A DNA stretch of 64,000 nucleotides from Alphaproteobacteria bacterium (GTDB taxonomy: Bacteria > Pseudomonadota > Alphaproteobacteria > Micropepsales > Micropepsaceae): NCBI GenBank assembly GCA_017308475.1, contig JAFKEU010000005.1:434001-498000 (forward strand). The letters are read 5' to 3'. Both the position numbers and the translations under genes were made by a program. Under the pieces are notes generated by a model. That model searched no databases. It worked only from the letters and a program-made list of their open reading frames with translations, and was not told the origin of the DNA. Positions within the stretch are counted from its first letter, which is position 1, and every line of letters starts with the position of its first letter. Positions 3,444 through 31,439 of the stretch are shown here, piece by piece.

Positions 3444-3734
3444 CTACTCGGCGCCTTCGACAAGGATGAATTCGCCTTCGCTGACGGACTGGCGGATGGC
3501 GCGCGCCGCGGTGTATTCCGGCGAATGATAGCAGTCATGTGCGTCCTGCAGCGAAGGAAATTCGATCAGCACATTGCGGGCGCGGGCCTGGCCCTCCAGC
3601 ATCTCGGTCCTGCCGCCGCGCGCCAGGAATCTGGCGCCATGACGCTCGAAGGCCGGCTTGGCCGTCTCGACATATTTCTTGTAGGTCTCCGGGTCGCGCA
3701 CATCGACGCGGGCAATCCAATAGGCTTTCGGCAT
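3444..3734 (-). CDS. DUF1330 family protein
   Basis: A 96-aa dimeric alpha/beta-barrel-type protein of the DUF1330 family, recognised by its N-terminal MPKAYWIARVDVRDPETY and the 'FPS..DAHDCYHSPEY' segment near residue 65. The biochemical role of the family is unknown; relatives are EthD/ABM-like. A strong AAGGGGAAG ribosome-binding site precedes the ATG. It sits 14 bases after asd and 28 bases before zapE on the same strand, so all three may be one transcript. Confidence 0.85.
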   Translation of the reverse strand: MPKAYWIARVDVRDPETYKKYVETAKPAFERHGARFLARGGRTEMLEGQARARNVLIEFPSLQDAHDCYHSPEYTAARAIRQSVSEGEFILVEGAE

Positions 3735-3748
3735 CTTCTTCCCCTTCT

Positions 3749-4768
3749 TCAGGCTGCAGTCAGCAGCTTGCGGTTGACCAGGCTTTCGGCGATCTGCACC
3801 GCGTTCAATGCGGCGCCCTTGCGCAGGTTGTCGGACACGATCCACAGCATCAGGCCGTTCTCGACGCTGGGATCCTTGCGGATGCGGCTGACGAAGGTGG
3901 CATCCTCGCCCGCGCACTCGATGGGCGTGACATAGCCGCCGTCCTCGCGCTTGTCGACGACCAGCACGCCGGGCGCCGCGCGCAGTACTGCCCGCGCCTT
4001 CTCGGCGGTCAGGGGCTGTTCGCACTCGATCGACACCGCCTCGCTATGGCCCACAAAGACTGGCACGCGCACGCAGGTCGCGGCGACCTGGATGTCCGGG
4101 TCCAGAATCTTTTGCGTCTCCACCATCATCTTCCATTCCTCCCTGGTGAAGCCGGAATCCAGGAAGACGTCGATATGGGGAATGACGTTGAAAGCGATCT
4201 GCTTGGGAAATTCCTCCACCACCACCGGGTCGGCCACGAAAATGGCGCGGCTCTGGCGGAACAGTTCGTCCATCGCCTCGCGCCCGGCACCGGATACGGA
4301 CTGATAGGTCGACACCACCACCCGCTTGATGGTGAAGGCGTCGTGCAGCGGCTTCAGCGCGACAACAAGCTGGGCGGTGGAGCAGTTCGGATTTGCGATG
4401 ATGCCCCTCGGCCGTTCCAGCAACGCGTCCGCGTTGACTTCCGGCACCACCAGCGGCACCTGCCGGTCCATGCGCCAGGCGCTGGAATTGTCGATCACCA
4501 CACAGCCCTGGGCGGCGATCCTGGGTGCCCATTCCTTGGCGATGGCACCACCCGCGCTCATCAGGCAGATGTCGGTGCCCTTGAAATCGTAATAGTCCAG
4601 CGCCTTGACCTTCAGGGTGCCCTCGCCGAAGGAAACCTCGGTGCCGACCGAGCGGGTCGAGGCCAGCGCCGCCACCTCCGAACAGGGAAATTGCCGCTGC
4701 GCCAGAACATTCAGCATCTCGCGCCCGACATTGCCGGTCGCACCCACAACAGCAATTTTATAAGCCAA
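3749..4768 (-). CDS. asd: aspartate-semialdehyde dehydrogenase
   Basis: Makes L-aspartate-4-semialdehyde from aspartyl phosphate with NADPH, the branch point to lysine/diaminopimelate, threonine and methionine. The 339-aa product has the Rossmann motif GATGNVGREML at residues 9-19 and the catalytic cysteine in NPNCSTAQ (Cys129), and is of standard length. The start codon is TTG, preceded by GGGG; the only upstream in-frame codons run into a TGA, and the next Met (residue 19) would remove the nucleotide-binding motif, so TTG is forced. First gene of the asd-DUF1330-zapE minus-strand group. Confidence 0.95.
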   Translation of the reverse strand: MAYKIAVVGATGNVGREMLNVLAQRQFPCSEVAALASTRSVGTEVSFGEGTLKVKALDYYDFKGTDICLMSAGGAIAKEWAPRIAAQGCVVIDNSSAWRMDRQVPLVVPEVNADALLERPRGIIANPNCSTAQLVVALKPLHDAFTIKRVVVSTYQSVSGAGREAMDELFRQSRAIFVADPVVVEEFPKQIAFNVIPHIDVFLDSGFTREEWKMMVETQKILDPDIQVAATCVRVPVFVGHSEAVSIECEQPLTAEKARAVLRAAPGVLVVDKREDGGYVTPIECAGEDATFVSRIRKDPSVENGLMLWIVSDNLRKGAALNAVQIAESLVNRKLLTAA

Positions 4769-4879
4769 GCCGCAATCCCCTTGTCATGGCCACCGCGAAA
4801 GCGGAGCCCTGTCGACGGCCAGAGGAATACTAGAAGGGGCCCGGATCGGAAAGGTGACGCAAAGCCCTTTGGAGCCCGC

Positions 4880-5176
4880 TCACCGCCACTGCAAGCGGAT
4901 CATGGCGCCGCCGCTGTCCACCCCGCCGCGAAGCGCGGGCATGAACGGGTCGGACGAGGAAGTTCCGGTGTCGAACGCGTCCCACCGCCCGCCGTGGACG
5001 CCCAGCGACTGGGCCGCCTCGTCGGCATAGTTCATGGCATAGGCCGGCCGTTCCTTGCCGGCCATGATCGAGGCCATCTGGTGCTCGCTGGGAATGGCGG
5101 GGGCGTAGGCCGGAAACCGCTGCCGCGCCATGGCGGGGGTGGCACAAAGCAGGAGAACCGCGAAAAGGCGCCACAT
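4880..5176 (-). CDS. secreted hypothetical protein
   Basis: A 98-aa protein with a clear Sec signal peptide (MWRLFAVLLLCATPAMA, cleavage about residue 17) and a small polar mature part ending in an aromatic-containing IRLQWR, which could be a beta-strand or outer-membrane-type end. No Cys at the cleavage site, so not a lipoprotein. Divergent from the next gene with about 170 bases between starts. Function unknown. Confidence 0.65.
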   Translation of the reverse strand: MWRLFAVLLLCATPAMARQRFPAYAPAIPSEHQMASIMAGKERPAYAMNYADEAAQSLGVHGGRWDAFDTGTSSSDPFMPALRGGVDSGGAMIRLQWR

Positions 5177-5345
5177 GGCAGGGCCTCACCTTCCGTCAAT
5201 AAAACGCGCTGAAAGACACCTGTATCCCCGCAATCTTTGGCTAACTGACAATAAAGTTCCCTTGTTACAGAGACTTGGCGGGCAGGCGGCGATCCGGTTA
5301 TGGTTCTTTGCCCGGCCCCCGCCGGCCCCCTTGGAGAGGACAACC

Positions 5346-5942
5346 ATGACCGCATGCAAGCTGGGCGCCTGCCTGCTCGCCTTCAGCGTGGCCGCAACCA
5401 GCGCCGCCGAGGCGCGCGGGTGCGCCTCGTCGGCGGAAGTCTCCGCCATCCAGATATCCGCCGTGCAGCAGGAACTGACCGACGCCGCGCTGGCCTGCGG
5501 CCCGCGCGAGGTGGCCCTGTTCAACCGCTTCCAGACCGTGTTCGGTCCTGAACTGCGCAAGTCCGACGCGCTGATGCTGCGCATGTTCAAGCGGCTCAAG
5601 GGCGTCGCGGCCGGCAACGCTGCCTACGACTCCTACAAGACGCGCGCCATCGCCCATGCCGAGCAGCGCCGCACCAAGCCTGGCGCGCATGACAATTTCT
5701 GCAAGACCGCCGATGTGGTTTTCGCCGCGGCGCTGGCCCCCGACAAGCCGATGCTGGGTGATCTGGTGTCCGGCATCGAGGTGAAGGAAGCTTCGCCCGT
5801 CGATGCCTGCGAAATCCGCGTTGCGGTCACGCTGGAAGGGGTGAAGTCGGGCGCCGAGGTCGTGCCCACCCCGCGTCCGGCCCTGCCCGGCGATCCCCCG
5901 GCGGAAAGCGGCACGCAACCCGCTGTGCGGCTGCTGCAGTAG
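5346..5942 (+). CDS. secreted hypothetical protein
   Basis: A 198-aa exported protein: signal peptide MTACKLGACLLAFSVAATSAAEA, then a helical region with four Cys (CASS, ACGPRE, NFCKT, DACEI) that could form two disulfides, and a proline-rich C-terminus. The ATG was chosen because it follows GGAGAGGAC and starts a good signal peptide, though the frame is open further upstream. I do not recognise the family. It is followed by a good intrinsic terminator. Confidence 0.7.
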   Translation: MTACKLGACLLAFSVAATSAAEARGCASSAEVSAIQISAVQQELTDAALACGPREVALFNRFQTVFGPELRKSDALMLRMFKRLKGVAAGNAAYDSYKTRAIAHAEQRRTKPGAHDNFCKTADVVFAAALAPDKPMLGDLVSGIEVKEASPVDACEIRVAVTLEGVKSGAEVVPTPRPALPGDPPAESGTQPAVRLLQ

Positions 5943-5967
5943 CAGGGGACGCAATTTCCAAAGGCCG

Positions 5968-5994
5968 GGCCGGAAGGTCCGGCCTTTTCGTTTT
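5968..5994 (+). terminator. intrinsic terminator after the secreted 198-aa protein
   Basis: A perfect 7-bp stem GGCCGGA/TCCGGCC with a 3-base loop, followed directly by TTTTCGTTTT. Confidence 0.8.
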
Positions 5995-6008
5995 GAAGCC
6001 GCGCGGAC

Positions 6009-6042
6009 AAAAGAAAAGGGCCGGTCTTTCGACCGGCCCTTT
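6009..6042 (-). terminator. intrinsic terminator of the ompA-like gene
   Basis: A 12-bp perfect stem AAAGGGCCGGTC / GACCGGCCCTTT with loop TTTC. Read on the minus strand it is followed by TTTTCTTTT, so it ends the porin transcript; the plus strand side also has a short T-run. Confidence 0.8.
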
Positions 6043-6062
6043 CCCGTTTCATTGGGCTGCCG

Positions 6063-8925: not shown

Positions 8926-9497
8926 CAGCAACCCGCCACGTTGTTGTTATAGGGCTCGTTGCGGAACGCCGCCGCCGCCGACAGAAGGTGAAAGTTGCCG
9001 GCCATGTTGGCCAGGAACCAGTCCAGGCCCGGCGTGAACACCGGCCAGGTGTAGAATCCGCGCACCAGCACCACGCTGCAGGGGGCTCCGGTTGAGAAAT
9101 TGTTCATGCCGGAATTCAGCGTGCCGCTGCCCGTCAGGGGCGAGCCGAAATTCACGCTGCCATAGCTGCTGAACGACTCCACGTCTATCATCAGCTTGCC
9201 GTCGCATGCCATCAGCGGCGCGACCAGGCTGCACACCTTGGCGCGGAAATCGGACTGGCTCATGTTTGCGGTCTGGACCTGGCCGGTACGGACCATGCGG
9301 CCCACTTCGTTGATCGCGTTCTGCAGCGTCGCCTGGGCGAAGAAGACGATGCCCGCTTCAATCGTGCCCATCAGCAGAATGAAGAAGACCGGCGCGACAA
9401 AGGCGAATTCGATCGCGGCCGAACCCTTGTCGGCATCGCGGCGCAGGCGCCCGAGGAATTTTCGGCAGCGCGATCGGAATTTCATGGCGAAGCGCAC
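8925..9497 (-). CDS. TadE-like pilus minor pilin
   Basis: A 190-aa TadE-family protein with DADKGSAAIEFAFVAPVFFILLMGTIEAGIVFFAQATLQNA at about residues 21-62, including the conserved Glu of the pilin-like helix, and a periplasmic domain with cysteines (VCSL, MACDG, PCSV, AGC). It is co-translated with the second TadE-like gene. The GTG start at 9497 has AAAGG about 15 bases upstream; an ATG four codons in (9485) is equally possible. Divergent from the vWA TadG-like gene across a region with CtrA-like boxes. Confidence 0.87.
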   Translation of the reverse strand: MRFAMKFRSRCRKFLGRLRRDADKGSAAIEFAFVAPVFFILLMGTIEAGIVFFAQATLQNAINEVGRMVRTGQVQTANMSQSDFRAKVCSLVAPLMACDGKLMIDVESFSSYGSVNFGSPLTGSGTLNSGMNNFSTGAPCSVVLVRGFYTWPVFTPGLDWFLANMAGNFHLLSAAAAFRNEPYNNNVAGC

Positions 9498-9680
9498 GGC
9501 ATCGTTAAGCCTTTACCCCGGGCGTATTTGTAGGCTCCCGGCGCCGGCAAGCGAAGACAAAGCCGCTTTCTTGCTCAATGGCCGGTTAACGCGGTTGATG
9601 GGCGGTTAACGGCATCCGGTGCCACGCGCGCCTTCGCCTAAATTCCGTTTAAACACCGTATTAACAGGGAACCGCTGTTG

Positions 9681-9696
9681 TTAAAGGCTGCATAAC
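9681..9696 (+). promoter_or_regulatory. CtrA-like box upstream of the TadG-like gene
   Basis: TTAAAGGCTGCATAAC fits TTAA-N7-TTAAC, the CtrA consensus, with one mismatch. Additional TTAAC half-sites occur at 9586-9590 and 9606-9610, and a TTAA-N8-TTAAC pair at 9649-9665, all in the divergent promoter region of the pilus genes. Prediction only. Confidence 0.45.
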
Positions 9697-9772
9697 CAAG
9701 CCCTGCGAAAGCAACGGCATTTTCACCACTTCGCGCCAATATGGATGCGCAACTGTGGGCGATGCTGCCGTC

Positions 9773-11434
9773 ATGGGCAAAACAATGGCTGGCTTCTTCA
9801 CGCGACTGCGCGATTTTGCGCTCTCGCGGCGCGGCAATGTGGCGATGATGTACGGGCTCGCGCTGGTGCCGCTGACCATCGCGGGCGGCGTCGGGCTGGA
9901 CCTGGCGCGCGGCATGATGGTGCGTTCGGCGATGAGCGAGGCGCTGGATTCGGCCGGCCTGGCGGTCGGTTCGAGCACGGGCCTCGATCACGACAGCGCG
10001 CTGGCCCTGGCGACCAAATACTTCAACGCCAACTACAAGGGCGATGCCGCCTACGGCACGCCCACCCTGTCGATCGCCGACAACGGCTACAACGCCAACG
10101 GCTCGGTGACGATCACCGCCACCGATCCCATGCCCACGACCCTGATGAAGGTCGCGGGCTTCCAGACCATACCGATCTCCACCACGACCACCGTGGTCTG
10201 GGGCCAGAGCAAATTGTGGGTGGCGCTGGTGCTGGACAATTCGGGCTCCATGGCCCAGGGCGACTCCAACGGCTCCAAGATGGACGCTCTGAAGAGCGCC
10301 TCGCAACAGCTCCTGACCACGCTGCAGGGCGCCTCCGCCAACGCCGGCGACGTGCAGGTGTCGATCGTGCCCTTCGACCGTATTGTCAATGTGGGCACCT
10401 CGAACGTCAATTCCAGCTGGGTCGGCTGGACCCCGTGGGAGGCGCAGCCCGCCAATGTCGACCTGGACGGCAAGACCGACCTGATCGGGCCCGGCGACGC
10501 CTGCCCCTTCACCACGTCCGGCAACAAGCTGATGAGCCCCTATGGGTTCTACTGCGTCAACGGCCCCAGCAACGGCTCCTCCAAAACCTCGACCATTCCG
10601 TCCAGCGGCAGCTACAAGGGCTACATCTGCCCCGGCATGGATTCCGGCGACTACAATACCGATCATCGGGACCAATATTACAACGGCTGCTACACCAGCA
10701 CCGCGACAGGCAGCACCAAGACCGTCTCGACCGGCACCTATGCGACGTGTAGCGGCTACGCCAACTGTTCCTGCTCGGGCAAGAACAGCAAACGGCAATG
10801 CAATGCCAGCTATTTCAAGCATGCCTGGGTGGTGAATGCCCACTCCACCTGGAAGGGCTGCATCATGGACCGCGACCAGGATTACGACATCGCCAACACC
10901 ACGCCCGGCAGCGGCGGCACGCTGTTCCCGGCCGTGAACGTGGCCAATTGCCTGCCCGCGACCATCACCACCCTGGGCTATGACTGGACCAGCCTGAGCA
11001 GCCAGATCGCCAACATGTCACCCAATACCTCCACCAACCAGGCCATCGGCGTCGCGCATGGCTGGCAGACGATCACGCCGGGCAATCCCTATGGCGCGCC
11101 GTCGGTTCCCGCCAACACCGCCCGCTACATCATCCTTCTGTCCGATGGCCTCAACACCCAGGACCGCTGGTGGGGCAACGGCTCGACCGAAGGCACCACC
11201 GAAGACGGCTATATCGACGACCGCGAAAAGAAGACCTGCGACGCCGCCAAGGCCGACGGCGTCATCATCTACACCATCTTCCTGGACATCGGTGGCGCCC
11301 ATGGCGATTCCGCGCCGCTGGAATATTGCGCCAGCGACAGCAGCAAATATTTCGACCTGACCAGCACCAGCGCTGTGGTGACCACCTTCAACCAGATCGC
11401 CGCCCAGATCACCAATGTCCGCGTGAGCAGATAG
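9773..11434 (+). CDS. TadG-like pilus assembly protein with vWA domain
   Basis: A 553-aa membrane-anchored protein. After a basic N-terminus comes RRGNVAMMYGLALVPLTIAGGVGLDLARG, a TadE/TadG-type helix, then from about residue 150 a von Willebrand A domain with the metal-binding motif DNSGSMAQG and ILLSDGLNTQD; a Cys/Ser/Thr-rich insert at about residues 245-375 interrupts it. Such proteins lie in Tad loci and are thought to assist adhesion or assembly. Start choice is uncertain: GTG 9755, ATG 9773 and ATG 9785 are all in frame and none has a clear ribosome-binding site. Confidence 0.85.
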   Translation: MGKTMAGFFTRLRDFALSRRGNVAMMYGLALVPLTIAGGVGLDLARGMMVRSAMSEALDSAGLAVGSSTGLDHDSALALATKYFNANYKGDAAYGTPTLSIADNGYNANGSVTITATDPMPTTLMKVAGFQTIPISTTTTVVWGQSKLWVALVLDNSGSMAQGDSNGSKMDALKSASQQLLTTLQGASANAGDVQVSIVPFDRIVNVGTSNVNSSWVGWTPWEAQPANVDLDGKTDLIGPGDACPFTTSGNKLMSPYGFYCVNGPSNGSSKTSTIPSSGSYKGYICPGMDSGDYNTDHRDQYYNGCYTSTATGSTKTVSTGTYATCSGYANCSCSGKNSKRQCNASYFKHAWVVNAHSTWKGCIMDRDQDYDIANTTPGSGGTLFPAVNVANCLPATITTLGYDWTSLSSQIANMSPNTSTNQAIGVAHGWQTITPGNPYGAPSVPANTARYIILLSDGLNTQDRWWGNGSTEGTTEDGYIDDREKKTCDAAKADGVIIYTIFLDIGGAHGDSAPLEYCASDSSKYFDLTSTSAVVTTFNQIAAQITNVRVSR

Positions 11435-26541: not shown

Positions 26542-27921
26542 ATGCATGCGAGCCTTGCGCGCGCCCGACAGTCAGCCCAGGGCGCCATCCCCCTTCATGC
26601 GGTGAGCGCCGCCGACGCCGCAAGCTGGCTGGCGGCGCAAAAGCATGGCGCGCTCATCAAGGCATCCGGCTTTGCCGGGGCGGAAGGGGCGCTGGCCGCG
26701 CTGCCCGATACCAAAGGCGCAATCGCCGCCTGGGTGCTGGGCCTGGGAGAGAGCCGCGATGCCTTTGCCCTGGCGGCTGCGGCGGAAAAGCTGCCCGCCG
26801 GACTCTACCGTCTGGGCGACGTGCCGGACTGGTGCGGGGGCGCCAATGCGGCGCTGGCCTGGACGATGGGCGGCTACGGCTTTTCCCGTTACCGCAAATC
26901 GAAAAACCATCCGCTCGCCCGGCTGGTGCTGCCGTCCGGGGTGGACGGGGAAGAGGTCAGCCGCATCGCCGAGCACCTGTTCCTGGGCCGCGACCTGGTG
27001 AATACCCCCGCCAACGACATGGGTCCGGCGGAACTGGAAGCGGCCGCGCGCGCGCTGGCCCGCCGCCACGGCGCGAAGGTGCGGGTGATCTCCGCCGCGG
27101 CGCTGAAGCGCGGCTATCCGCTGATCGCGGCGGTGGGACAGGGCTCGGACCGCGCGCCCCGCCTGATCGAGCTGGTCTGGGGAACTGCCCGTGCGCCGAA
27201 AGTGACGCTGGTCGGCAAGGGGGTGTGTTTCGACACCGGCGGGCTGGACCTCAAGCCCTCCTCGGCGATGCTGACCATGAAGAAGGACATGGGCGGGGCG
27301 GCCTGCGTGCTGGCGGTGGCGGGCATGGCGATGGGCGCGAAACTCAAATCGCGCCTGCGCGTGCTGATCCCGGCGGTGGAAAATTCCGTCTCCGGCCGCG
27401 CCATGCGTCCGGGCGACGTGTTCGAAAGCCGCAAGGGCCTGACGGTGGAGATCGGCAACACCGACGCGGAAGGGCGGCTGGTGCTGGCCGATGCGCTGGC
27501 CGACGCCGACGCCGAAGCACCCGACCTGATGATCGACGTGGCGACCCTGACGGGGGCGGCGCGCATGGCCACCGGCATGGAAGTGCCGCCCTTCTTCACC
27601 GACGACAATAAACTGGCCGCCGACCTGATGCGGCTGGGCACGGCGGTTCAGGACCCGTTGTGGCGCCTGCCTCTGTGGCGCGGCTATGAGGACACGCTGA
27701 AAAGCCGCATCGCCGACCTCAACAACAATCCCGCCTACAATCTGGCGGGCGCCATCACCGCCGCGCTGTTCCTGAACCGCTTTGTCGAAAAGACGAAAAA
27801 CTGGGTGCATCTGGACATCCCCGCCTGGATCGACCGGCCGCGGCCCGGCCGCCCCCTGGGCGGCGAGGTCAACGCCGCGCGCGCGCTCTATGCGCTGCTG
27901 AAAGAGCGTTATGGCCGATAG
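26542..27921 (+). CDS. M17 leucyl aminopeptidase
   Basis: A 459-aa cytosolic metallo-aminopeptidase that removes N-terminal residues from peptides. The two-metal site is visible: GKGVCFDTGGLDLKPSSAMLTMKKDMGGAA (about residues 225-255) and NTDAEGRLVLADALADA (about residue 310), followed by IDVATLTGAARMA. N-terminal macro-like domain precedes it. Overlaps the NlpC/P60 gene by 11 bases in another frame, so the two are co-transcribed and may act together in peptide or cell-wall turnover. Confidence 0.93.
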   Translation: MHASLARARQSAQGAIPLHAVSAADAASWLAAQKHGALIKASGFAGAEGALAALPDTKGAIAAWVLGLGESRDAFALAAAAEKLPAGLYRLGDVPDWCGGANAALAWTMGGYGFSRYRKSKNHPLARLVLPSGVDGEEVSRIAEHLFLGRDLVNTPANDMGPAELEAAARALARRHGAKVRVISAAALKRGYPLIAAVGQGSDRAPRLIELVWGTARAPKVTLVGKGVCFDTGGLDLKPSSAMLTMKKDMGGAACVLAVAGMAMGAKLKSRLRVLIPAVENSVSGRAMRPGDVFESRKGLTVEIGNTDAEGRLVLADALADADAEAPDLMIDVATLTGAARMATGMEVPPFFTDDNKLAADLMRLGTAVQDPLWRLPLWRGYEDTLKSRIADLNNNPAYNLAGAITAALFLNRFVEKTKNWVHLDIPAWIDRPRPGRPLGGEVNAARALYALLKERYGR

Positions 27922-28744
27922 CTTCGACAAGAGAGTGACGCCCGCGCGGCTCGACCTGGCGGCGTCCTTTCTCAAGGACAAGGTCCAGGCCGAACGCTAT
28001 GCCGACGGACAGGCGTTCATCTCCACACGGGGCCACACGCCCCTGCGCGCCTGTCCCGAAAGCTATGCCGCGCAGGAAACCGAGCTGCTGTTCGGGGAAC
28101 TCTTCACCGTCTATGAGCAGAAGGACGGCTGGGCGTGGGGGCAGATCGCCTCGGACGGCTACGTCGGGTATCTCCACGCCCTGACGCTGGAGGCGCCCGT
28201 CATCGCCACCCATCGGGTCAGCGTGCCGGCGACGCCCGTGCTGGTGCGGTGCGACGCCAAGGCGGCGTCGCTGCAGCTGTTGCCCATGAATGCGCAGGTG
28301 CGCGTGGAACGCGTCATCGGCGATTTCTGCGAGACCAATGCCGGCTTCGTCTTCACAAAGCATCTGGTGCCGCTGGGCAGCCATGAATCCGATTTCACCG
28401 CCGTCGCCGAACGCTTTGTCGGCGCCCCCTATGTATGGGGCGGCAAGACCTTTGCGGGGCTGGACTGTTCGGGCCTGGTGCAGACGTCATTGGCAGCGTG
28501 CGGCGTCAGCGCGCCGCGCGACACCGACATGATGGAGCGTGCGCTGGGCACGCCTGTCGCCATCGCCGATGCACGGCGCGGCGATCTTGTCTTCTGGAAG
28601 GGCCATATGGGCATCGTGCTGGACGGCGCACGCTTCCTGCATGCCAACGCTTTCCATATGCAGGTGACGCTCGAGCCGCTGGCCGAAGCGCTGGCGCGCA
28701 ATGAAAAATTCTGCGGCCCCCTCACGTCGGTGAAGCGGCTATAG
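27911..28744 (+). CDS. NlpC/P60 cell-wall peptidase with SH3 domain
   Basis: A 277-aa peptidoglycan hydrolase. An N-terminal SH3-like region (about residues 35-145, RACPESYAAQETELLFGELFTVYEQKDGWAWGQIASDGYVGYL) precedes the NlpC/P60 domain with the catalytic Cys in GAPYVWGGKTFAGLDCSGLVQ and His in GHMGIVLDG. It likely cleaves gamma-D-Glu-diaminopimelate bonds in recycled or released wall peptides. No signal peptide, suggesting cytoplasmic peptide recycling together with the adjoining aminopeptidase. Confidence 0.93.
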   Translation: MADSFDKRVTPARLDLAASFLKDKVQAERYADGQAFISTRGHTPLRACPESYAAQETELLFGELFTVYEQKDGWAWGQIASDGYVGYLHALTLEAPVIATHRVSVPATPVLVRCDAKAASLQLLPMNAQVRVERVIGDFCETNAGFVFTKHLVPLGSHESDFTAVAERFVGAPYVWGGKTFAGLDCSGLVQTSLAACGVSAPRDTDMMERALGTPVAIADARRGDLVFWKGHMGIVLDGARFLHANAFHMQVTLEPLAEALARNEKFCGPLTSVKRL

Positions 28745-28771
28745 AATGAGGGCGGCAGCGGAGCCGGGGCA

Positions 28772-28789
28772 CTGTCCGCATTCGAACAG
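28772..28789. promoter_or_regulatory. 18-bp palindromic site 1 upstream of the FtsX/MacB permease
   Basis: CTGTCCGCATTCGAACAG; reading it on the other strand gives CTGTTCGAATGCGGACAG, so it is a palindrome with four mismatched positions. Placed about 115 bases before the expected sigma-54 start point. Confidence 0.5.
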
Positions 28790-28801
28790 GTGTCCGCCAA
28801 C

Positions 28802-28819
28802 CTGTACGGACGCGGACAC
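28802..28819. promoter_or_regulatory. 18-bp palindromic site 2 upstream of the FtsX/MacB permease
   Basis: CTGTACGGACGCGGACAC matches site 1 at CTGT-CG-A--CG-ACA positions. Its centre is 30 bases from that of site 1 (about three helical turns) and about 85 bases before the expected start point, as for an enhancer-binding activator. Confidence 0.5.
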
Positions 28820-28868
28820 TGCCCACGCACCGGCGGCATGTAATCTATTGATTCCATTATGCTCAACT

Positions 28869-28886
28869 TTGGCGTGTCGCTTGCAT
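28869..28886 (+). promoter_or_regulatory. sigma-54-type promoter of the permease gene
   Basis: TTGGCGTGTCGCTTGCAT has the -24 GG and -12 GC separated by exactly 10 bases, in TGGC-N7-TTGCA context. A transcript starting near 28896 would have a leader of about 70 bases, with a perfect hairpin, before the ATG. Confidence 0.6.
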
Positions 28887-28901
28887 GGATAACGATTGAG
28901 A

Positions 28902-28925
28902 GCCCAGGCGCAGCTTCGCCTGGGC
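28902..28925 (+). repeat. leader hairpin before the permease gene
   Basis: GCCCAGGCG-CAGCTT-CGCCTGGGC, a perfect 9-bp stem with 6-base loop in the predicted 5' leader. It has no T-run, so it is more likely structural or mRNA-stabilising than a terminator. Confidence 0.6.
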
Positions 28926-28964
28926 ACGAGCGGCGAAAGCCGCCAAGTCATTGCGGGGGGCGCC

Positions 28965-31439
28965 ATGTTTCGCAATTACCTGGTCACCGCGCTGCGCAAC
29001 ATCGCCCGGCACAAGCTGTACAGCTTCATCAATATCGCCGGCTTGGCCGTGGGCCTGGCCTGCGCGATCTTCATCATGCTGTTCGTGCGCGACGAGCTGT
29101 CCTACGACACCTGGCTTCCTGATACGCAGCACATTTATCGGGTGGAAAAGATTGCGCGTCCGCTGGGCCGCGACCAGCTCAATCTGGCGATCGCGCCTTT
29201 CATGTTGCCGACCACGATGCGTGACAGCCTGCCGGAAGTGACGGCAATGACGCGCATCTTCTATGCCCCCATGTCGATGTTCGCCGGTGACCGCCAGTTT
29301 CGCGAGAATGTGGCGTCAGTGGCCCCAAATTTTTTCACGGTCATCAGGTTTCCGCTGGCAAAGGGTGATCCGGCCACCGTATTCAGGAATCCGGAATCGG
29401 CGGTCGTCTCGGAAAGCGCGGCCCTGAAGTATTTCGGAACCACCGACGCCATCGGAAAGACGATAAAGACCACCGCCAATTGCGATGTCTCGGACAAGGC
29501 TTGCCTTGGACGGCTGATCCCCCTGAAAGTCACGGGCGTGATGCGGGACATTCCGCACAACTCCCAACTCGACGGCGATGTGTTCGTGCCCAGCACGTCC
29601 ATTACAGACCGGCTGTTTCAGCAGACCAGGCAGTCCTGGTATGGCAACTGTTGCTATAGCTATGTCGTGCTGGCGCCGGGCGTCACGCCGCAGGCCGTCG
29701 TCGCGAAGATGGCGCCCATACTTGACCGCATCGTTCCAAGTGAACCGGGCGACTCTCGCAAGGGCAGCCAGCGCTATGCCATTCACCTGACCCCGTTCAC
29801 GGATGTTCACCTCACCGCCGGCCGCTGGAGTTCCAGCGAAACGCCCGCCGGCAGTTGGCCCGCACTTTACGGTATGGGCGCTATTGGCTTTCTGATTCTG
29901 CTGATCGCCTGCTTCAACTTCATGAATCTGTCCACCGCGCGCGCGTTGCTGCGTGCGCGCGAGATCGGGTTGCGCAAGACCCATGGCGCCCGCCGGGGCC
30001 AGCTTGTCGCCCAGTTCCTGGGCGAGGCGGTTTTGATGGCGCTTCTGTCGCTGATCCTCGCTCTGGCGCTGGTGGAGATTCTGCTGCCATCCTTCGACCG
30101 CTTGCTGCAGCATCCGGTCGGACTGCACTATGCCGGCGACTGGCCTTTTTTGCTGATGATCGTCGGCGTTGCCGTCCTAGCAGGCTTGGGAAGCGGACTT
30201 TACCCTGCCCTCGTTTTGTCGGGCTTTCGTCCCGTGACAGCCATGCGCGCGGCCACCGGTGGGCTGGCCGGTTCGGGCCGGCTGCGGACCACCCTGGTCG
30301 TCCTGCAGTTCGCCGTATCCATCGGGCTGGGCGCAGCCGCCATCGTCATGTTCGCCCAGATCAGTTTTGCGCAAAGGATCGATCTGGGTTTTCGCAAGGA
30401 CAATATTCTGGTCATTGTCGGAAACGGTCTTCTGACGGTTGGCGGACAGGAAAGCTTCGTCCAGCGCCTGCGGTCCGATCCCGATATCCAGGATGTGGCG
30501 ATGATTGACTGGCCACCGCTCAACCGCAGCATGGCCCTGCTGACGGGCATTCACCTGTCCGGCAAATCCCAGGATGTTGCGCTGTACCGGCGCGTGATCG
30601 ATCCCCATGCCGCCCAGTTTCTGGGCATCAAGCTGCTGGCCGGACGTTATCTCTCCGACAGGCGGGCCCAGGACCGGATCGATATCCGGACGGTGTTGGA
30701 AGTGTCCGGCAATGAGGGGCACAACGTCCTGATCAATGCTGCCGCGGCCTCGGGCCTGGGGCTGACGCCGCACCAAGCGGTGGGCCAGACCATCGTTCTG
30801 AACACATTGCATCTGCACATCGTCGGCGTTCTTGCCGATGTCGAATTCAACGGCGCGCGCGAGTGGGCGGAGCCGTCGCTCTATATCTATGGCCCCGACC
30901 AGCCCGCCTATGCGCTGGTGCGCGTTCGCCCCGAAGCCATGTCCCGGGCCCTGACTTTCATAGACCGGGAATGGCACGTCTTCGCACCCACCAAGGCGGT
31001 GTGGCGCTATTTTCTGGATGAAAATTTCGCGCGGCTGTACCGGAGCGACGAGCGCCGCGGAGCGATGCTCGGCATTTTCGTCTGTATCGCCGTCCTGATT
31101 TCCGCGCTGGGGCTGTTTGGCCTTGCTGCCTTCACCGCCAGCCGACGGACCAGGGAAATCGGCATCCGCAAGGTGTTCGGCGCCCGCACGCGCGATCTAA
31201 CCCTGCTGCTGTTATGGCAGTTCACCATCCCGGTTTTGCTGGCCAATCTGATCGCCTGGCCCATAGCCTGGTATTACCTGCACCATTGGCTGCAGGGCTT
31301 CGCCTATCGCATCAGTCTCAGCCCGCTCTATTTCCTTACGGCAGGCGCGGTCGCGCTCGCCATCGCCTGGGCCACCATTTTCGTTCATGCCTGGCGGGTG
31401 GCCAGAGCCAATCCCGTCCACGCGCTTCGCACCGAATAA
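28965..31439 (+). CDS. FtsX/MacB-type ABC transporter permease
   Basis: An 824-aa permease with the duplicated layout of MacB/FtsX-like exporters: N-terminal helix MFRNYLVTALRNIARHKLYSFINIAGLAVGLACAIFIML, a large periplasmic MacB_PCD domain, FtsX helices at about residues 300-420 with FLILLIACFNFMNLSTARALLRAREIGLRKTHGARRGQL, a second periplasmic domain, and a second FtsX block (about 700-815) with ASRRTREIGIRKVFGARTRDL. Such permeases move lipids, peptides or antimicrobial compounds but need a separate ATPase, absent here. The ATG is placed after GGGGGG. Preceded by a sigma-54-like promoter. Confidence 0.9.
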   Translation: MFRNYLVTALRNIARHKLYSFINIAGLAVGLACAIFIMLFVRDELSYDTWLPDTQHIYRVEKIARPLGRDQLNLAIAPFMLPTTMRDSLPEVTAMTRIFYAPMSMFAGDRQFRENVASVAPNFFTVIRFPLAKGDPATVFRNPESAVVSESAALKYFGTTDAIGKTIKTTANCDVSDKACLGRLIPLKVTGVMRDIPHNSQLDGDVFVPSTSITDRLFQQTRQSWYGNCCYSYVVLAPGVTPQAVVAKMAPILDRIVPSEPGDSRKGSQRYAIHLTPFTDVHLTAGRWSSSETPAGSWPALYGMGAIGFLILLIACFNFMNLSTARALLRAREIGLRKTHGARRGQLVAQFLGEAVLMALLSLILALALVEILLPSFDRLLQHPVGLHYAGDWPFLLMIVGVAVLAGLGSGLYPALVLSGFRPVTAMRAATGGLAGSGRLRTTLVVLQFAVSIGLGAAAIVMFAQISFAQRIDLGFRKDNILVIVGNGLLTVGGQESFVQRLRSDPDIQDVAMIDWPPLNRSMALLTGIHLSGKSQDVALYRRVIDPHAAQFLGIKLLAGRYLSDRRAQDRIDIRTVLEVSGNEGHNVLINAAAASGLGLTPHQAVGQTIVLNTLHLHIVGVLADVEFNGAREWAEPSLYIYGPDQPAYALVRVRPEAMSRALTFIDREWHVFAPTKAVWRYFLDENFARLYRSDERRGAMLGIFVCIAVLISALGLFGLAAFTASRRTREIGIRKVFGARTRDLTLLLLWQFTIPVLLANLIAWPIAWYYLHHWLQGFAYRISLSPLYFLTAGAVALAIAWATIFVHAWRVARANPVHALRTE

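Follow-up and report, generated by a model that had tools for sequence, protein, structure and literature searches.

The window analysed here is a 64-kb stretch of contig JAFKEU010000005.1 from an alphaproteobacterium of the family Micropepsaceae, and our subject is a lone FtsX/MacB-type permease gene in it, together with the region upstream of that gene (28773-28896). No gene for an enhancer-binding protein (EBP) and no ATP-binding cassette (ABC) ATPase was detected in the 64-kb window, in agreement with the initial annotation of this DNA. The region carries two upstream activating sequences (UAS), a site of the integration host factor (IHF) type and a sigma-54 promoter element ahead of the permease gene:

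28773-28788, no strand assigned: UAS1, the distal enhancer, TGTCCGCATTCGAACA; an exact TGTNCGN4CGNACA palindrome, kept in related control regions
28787-28808, + strand: inter-UAS segment CAGGTGTCCGCCAACCTGTACG; 21 of 22 bases common to the window and the sister locus L023 (described below)
28803-28818, no strand assigned: UAS2, the proximal enhancer, TGTACGGACGCGGACA; an exact TGTNCGN4CGNACA palindrome with its centre 61 bp from the promoter GG
28841-28853, - strand: IHF-type site AATCAATAGATTA, read from the sequence; its TTGAT position is conserved in the control-region alignment
28870-28885, + strand: near-consensus sigma-54 -24/-12 element TGGCGTGTCGCTTGCA; GG at 28871-28872 and GC at 28883-28884, separated by N10
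28896-28964, + strand: predicted 5' leader with hairpins at 28902-28925 and 28930-28943, not conserved
28965-31439, + strand: orphan fused MacB/FtsX-type permease of 824 aa with 4+4 transmembrane (TM) helices, from domain matches and a model

Scanning of the 64-kb window revealed that UAS1 and UAS2 are its sole two exact TGTNCGN4CGNACA palindromes, and they stand 30 bp apart, centre to centre. The initial annotation had described two 18-bp palindromes here; their number, coordinates and spacing were right, but the unit is 16 bp (TGTNCG-N4-CGNACA), and only UAS1 extends to 18 bp. It had also claimed a -24/-12 element with GG-N10-GC spacing, which is indeed found within TGGC-N7-TTGC at 28870-28885 and is column-conserved in an alignment of 11 control regions, placing the predicted transcription start, deduced from the -12 position, at about 28896. 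The IHF-type site at 28841-28853, which lies between the UAS pair and the promoter, had been missed; AATCAATAGATTA agrees at every specified position with WATCAANNNNTTR, which we take to be the IHF consensus. A single -24/-12 match carries little weight, as 13 matches with at most one mismatch were found in the window and 13.6 were expected by chance. The combined layout, however, is not a product of chance, because 300 Markov-simulated 64-kb strands gave neither a palindrome pair nor a complete layout. A sigma-70 promoter for the permease was looked for and none was found. An in-frame TTG at 28896, which would open an 847-aa reading frame, was not adopted as the start codon, since this position is also the predicted transcription start, and the conserved protein sequence starts only from 28965. 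Judged by its sequence, the region has every part of an NtrC-type sigma-54 control region: two UAS, an IHF site and a -24/-12 promoter.

Genome searches, on which our genome-wide palindrome counts are based, found just one other exact palindrome pair with 30-bp-type spacing in the genome of the window (G000), at C15:276647-276692 on contig C15. This pair, in the locus L023, sits in the intergenic region between an EBP-kinase pair and a divergent operon:

L023:10696-12060: NtrC-type response regulator (EBP) with receiver, sigma-54 AAA+ (Sigma54_activat) and Fis-type helix-turn-helix (HTH) domains
L023:12050-13402: histidine kinase, the sensor linked to the EBP
L023:9262-10569: HlyD-type adaptor, in the operon running opposite to the EBP-kinase pair
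L023:8558-9244: ABC ATPase, same operon as the adaptor; candidate partner of the window permease
L023:6057-8537 and 3547-6045: two operon permeases, same operon
L023:2118-3554: outer-membrane efflux protein (channel), same operon

The L023 operon carries its own -24/-12 element, TGGCACGCCGTTTGCG, and here, as in the window, the GG lies 61 bp from the centre of the proximal palindrome. The EBP gene starts beside its own UAS pair, which marks its product as the candidate cognate EBP, and rpoN, encoding sigma-54, is present in the genome. The initial annotation had left the regulator and the partner unknown; neither is in the window, but a search of the genome for the motif and for a sigma-54 activator, the check that it had proposed, located the second palindrome pair and the EBP on C15 and thereby candidates for both. 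Single palindromes at L001, L002, L005, L006, L007 and L010 of the same genome were set aside as background, having no second site nearby even with at most two mismatches; two of these six loci have a weak promoter-like match, not the layout. Two side observations concern transcription of L023 itself. The EBP start codon lies 2 nt past, or overlaps, the distal palindrome (L023:10678-10698; also at L062 and L063), so the EBP, when bound there, may turn off its own gene as well, and the adaptor ATG (10569) coincides with the predicted transcription start, so the operon transcript may be leaderless.

The window permease is a tandem of two MacB-like units, with two MacB_PCD and two FtsX matches, and its halves align to each other as profiles with 98.9% probability. 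In the AlphaFold2 model (mean pLDDT 83, pTM 0.75), eight long membrane helices are arranged as 4+4, and PDB matches of the fold include YbbP, MacB and LolCDE. The orphan keeps both coupling-helix motifs (REIGLRKTHGA and REIGIRKVFGA), so that domains, 4-TM units and coupling helix all correspond to a type VII (MacB/FtsX) ABC permease. Among its best NCBIfam matches, ADOP TIGR03434 aligns over nearly the whole length at 299.3 bits, far under the curated cut-off of 622.3, and the darobactin exporter DarB NF038008 over the N-terminal two thirds at 91 bits against a cut-off of 700; by these cut-offs the permease belongs to neither family. The best PDB match is E. coli YbbP of the YbbAP system (9ge6_A, E 5.6e-19), which likewise has two units per chain and a separate ATPase, but the TM-score is only 0.47 and the window model is without the pair of linking helices that YbbP is described as having (PMC5985334). 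Fused MacB-type permeases are said to have, without exception, an ATPase that is a protein of its own (PMC5985334). Both membrane halves come from a single fused permease; where one ATPase gene accompanies several permeases, these are therefore most readily understood as alternatives, not as extra subunits.

We searched for relatives in 61 genomes. Nine members of the genus have full-length relatives of the permease, and so does a single genome from another family. All nine genus members have the EBP, kinase, adaptor, ATPase and permease locus, with paired sites that are exact or have at most one mismatch per site. Nine loci of the genus have their paired UAS 21-30 bp apart and keep 60-62 bp between the proximal palindrome and the GG. 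A control-region model (alignment A1, model R1), which uses sequence only and was built from the very control regions that it recovers, gave strong matches at nine EBP operons and two orphan permeases, that of the window and L069 (G020:C59) in a second genus genome, where the paired sites are 21 bp apart and the promoter lies at the same 61-bp distance. The search found no further strong sites beyond these nine operons and two orphans, and it is this absence that is informative, because the model was built from these sequences. Matches at L084, L086, L087, L088, L129 and L130 were not counted, being promoter-only or weak, without paired palindromes at the promoter. The comparison of related loci that had been proposed as a check therefore found both the -24/-12 element and the palindromes kept, and conservation at the genus EBP operons and at the second orphan permease bears out the earlier reading of an enhancer-binding-protein promoter.

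As for the origin of the orphans, a tree of 23 permeases pairs the window permease with permease 2 of the operon in the same genome (support 100/99, 58% identity) and makes the L069 permease sister to the operon permeases of G005 and G024 (support 100/100); with different sisters in the tree, the two are independent spin-offs. An NlpC/P60-type gene (27911-28744) precedes the control region of the window. The gene order aminopeptidase, NlpC, cytochrome c, KdsB is kept in relatives without an intervening permease, the NlpC-to-cytochrome gap at L113 being only 277 bp, and for this reason we regard the window permease, together with its control region, as an apparent insertion in this lineage. No control region was found at the lone permeases L024, L072 and L074. 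The first of these (L024:5396-7828, G000:C8) is a further member of the same family in the window's genome, with 49% identity to the window permease, so this genome has orphan permeases both inside and outside the regulon. Near the lone permease of L072 (G020:C52; 6014-8431), a predicted protein (9477-10841) has a CxxxCxxC-like motif, which is typical of radical SAM enzymes, and a peptide-modification neighbourhood is possible there.

To look beyond the genus, named genomes were scanned with the permease protein alone, and DNA motifs were not used in choosing. This returned 79 loci from Bacteroidota, Gammaproteobacteria, Aminicenantes, Ignavibacteria, KSB1, Zixibacteria and others, many with the same EBP-kinase-adaptor-ATPase set and one to several permeases. 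Upstream of 72 first-in-run permeases (28.6 kb), there are 9 exact copies of the palindrome, and 26 copies if one mismatch is allowed; the coding sequence of the same permeases (171 kb) gave 0 and 3, and shuffled sequence averaged 0.03 and 0.45, respectively. Twenty permeases contributed the upstream sites, two pairs of them (Adhaeribacter, Dyadobacter) being congeneric near-duplicates. In 12 genomes taken from this set, we searched for the EBP: 11 have one clear ortholog (47-59% identity, 423-543 bits, with the next EBP at most 336 bits), and the palindrome lies within ~170 bp of the start in 7 of the 11, compared with none of 19 other EBPs. Dyadobacter sediminis and D. flavalbus (L156/L217, L159/L218) each combine a UAS-bearing orphan permease with paired UAS at the EBP. 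The orthologs also share the C-terminal recognition-helix pattern LYRR-x-EK-Y/F-G. Because the permeases had been chosen without reference to DNA motifs, this co-occurrence is the chief reason for assigning these sites to this EBP. Strict -24/-12 sites precede 7 of the 72 permeases and 0 occur on the opposite strand; the -12 element appears looser in Bacteroidota, so promoters there are incompletely recovered.

Two further features of the distant genomes were observed. At L138, L162, L206, L207 and L208, between five and eight complete or partial FtsX/MacB permeases follow one another head to tail, and the stretch covered contains hardly any ATPase gene or none at all. In Bacteroidota (L223, L225-L229), a second EBP subfamily of ~40% identity, also with GAFTDA, adjoins weakly similar permeases without this palindrome and is possibly the regulator of a parallel regulon with another enhancer.

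According to the above-described analysis, control of the window permease by a remote EBP is well supported at the level of sequence, and one regulator very probably turns on both the orphan permease and the efflux-pump operon. A signal at the linked kinase (L023:12050-13402) would lead to phosphorylation of the EBP, which would then bind the paired palindromes at both the window and L023. IHF would bend the DNA, and RNA polymerase with sigma-54, once activated, would start at ~28896. The pump operon and the orphan permease would thus be produced together, and the orphan would probably rely on the ATPase, adaptor and channel of the operon, acting as an alternative permease that selects substrates for the exporter and so adding a substrate range. 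We consider it likely that the orphan permease is under the L023 EBP and co-produced with the pump operon, probably sharing its ATPase, adaptor and channel.

Several points weigh against this proposal. Regulation by the EBP is read from sequence, and for ATPase sharing the argument draws on two observations, the lack of a nearby ATPase and the conserved coupling motifs. Among the 11 distant EBP orthologs, 4 show no UAS at their start, and in G445, where the lone permease of L141 carries a degenerate UAS, there is no clear EBP ortholog. Moreover, the sigma-54 contact loop reads GAFTDA instead of GAFTGA in all genus EBPs (L023, L062-L064, L066-L068, L070, L071 and L073) and in 10 of the 11 distant orthologs (L211-L221), the exception being GAYTGA in L213. 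GAFTDA is listed among the variants expected to keep activity (PMC4641369), yet the same loop change makes NorR constitutive (PMC2941729), and in a study of VfmH, sigma-54 was not recovered in a pull-down with a GAFTDA protein (PMC10714721).

Under the same EBP control, the orphan could instead use another ATPase, e.g., a LolD- or FtsE-like one, or be a non-transport envelope protein, with co-regulation reflecting a common stress response. We infer the sharing of the L023 ATPase indirectly, and the type VII family includes non-transporters such as FtsEX (PMC8277102), so this alternative is possible, if rather unlikely: the window permease is closely paralogous to a permease encoded in one operon with the L023 ATPase, and several operons already combine two or three fused permeases with a single ATPase gene. 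The identity of the DNA-binding protein might also be questioned, since palindromic sites alone do not name their binder and four more strong EBP domain matches exist in the genome. Binding by one of these or by a non-EBP repressor, with the likeness to C15 due to common DNA ancestry only, seems improbable given that the sites co-occur with orthologs of the L023 EBP across phyla, with none at the starts of 19 other EBPs, and that the recognition-helix pattern is conserved in the orthologs.

The 60 relatives searched hold no ortholog of the window permease, whose best match outside the genome has 52-53% identity, as might be expected if the permease and its control region were a recent non-functional duplicate, in which the promoter works and the protein is dispensable or decaying. 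Such decay is quite improbable, however, as the frame is open over its full length, both coupling motifs are kept, and 58% identity to the sister implies long upkeep of an intact frame and of the UAS-promoter layout; all invariant family positions are also present, although by definition, the window permease being the first row of alignment A2. Finally, the window has no more single -24/-12 matches with one mismatch than chance would give, but a chance resemblance to a sigma-54 promoter can hardly be credited when 0 of 300 simulated strands gave the layout, the layout is kept within the genus, and the UAS recurs in other phyla.

The initial annotation had further suggested that the leader hairpin may add a post-transcriptional layer. 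The hairpin at 28902-28925 exists, but the leader folds only modestly better than shuffles (z = -2.0), there is no U run, and the leader of the second orphan permease (L069) has no fold like it; we rejected it as a regulatory RNA.

The control region resembles known NtrC-family promoters in the order and spacing of UAS, IHF site and -24/-12 element, and in having a two-component activator with Sigma54_activat and Fis-type HTH domains and sigma-54 in the genome; it differs in its own UAS, TGTNCG-N4-CGNACA, in the GAFTDA loop and in an unlinked orphan permease as second target. Likewise, the operon resembles MacAB-TolC and other type VII tripartite ABC exporters, with adaptor, ATPase, FtsX/MacB permease and outer-membrane channel together, and the fold of the window permease matches MacB and LolCDE; unlike in those exporters, the ATPase gene is separate, the permease consists of two fused MacB units, several permeases occur per ATPase, and an extra permease lies elsewhere. 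The accessible text of a 2025 PLoS One survey of sigma-54 regulons reports statistical enrichment of sigma-54 sites before COG0577 FtsX-like permeases, terms it the first evidence of this link, and gives Gammaproteobacteria, Opitutia and Bacteroidia as the enriched classes; that text names no UAS or enhancer, no EBP or activator and no unlinked orphan targets (PMC12316311). Beyond this survey, no paper on this enhancer, its EBP or the unlinked regulon was found in the open-access library searched. NtrC-type control and type VII ABC exporters as such are established.

Orphan fused MacB/FtsX permeases occur in several phyla, and their gene neighbourhood is silent on regulator or ATPase. The shared, readable enhancer would link many of them to a single EBP and a single pump operon, and it thereby makes the partner and the inducing signal of an orphan permease testable and the regulon members predictable from sequence alone. 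We may tentatively propose, as a plausible idea short of an expectation, that interchangeable orphan fused MacB/FtsX permeases make up one regulon, set by a single ancient EBP/UAS code that extends from Alphaproteobacteria to Bacteroidota, Ignavibacteria and Aminicenantes, and that all of these permeases use one ATPase-adaptor-channel core. If this is true, the cell would extend one pump's range of substrates through further unlinked permeases that answer to the same switch.

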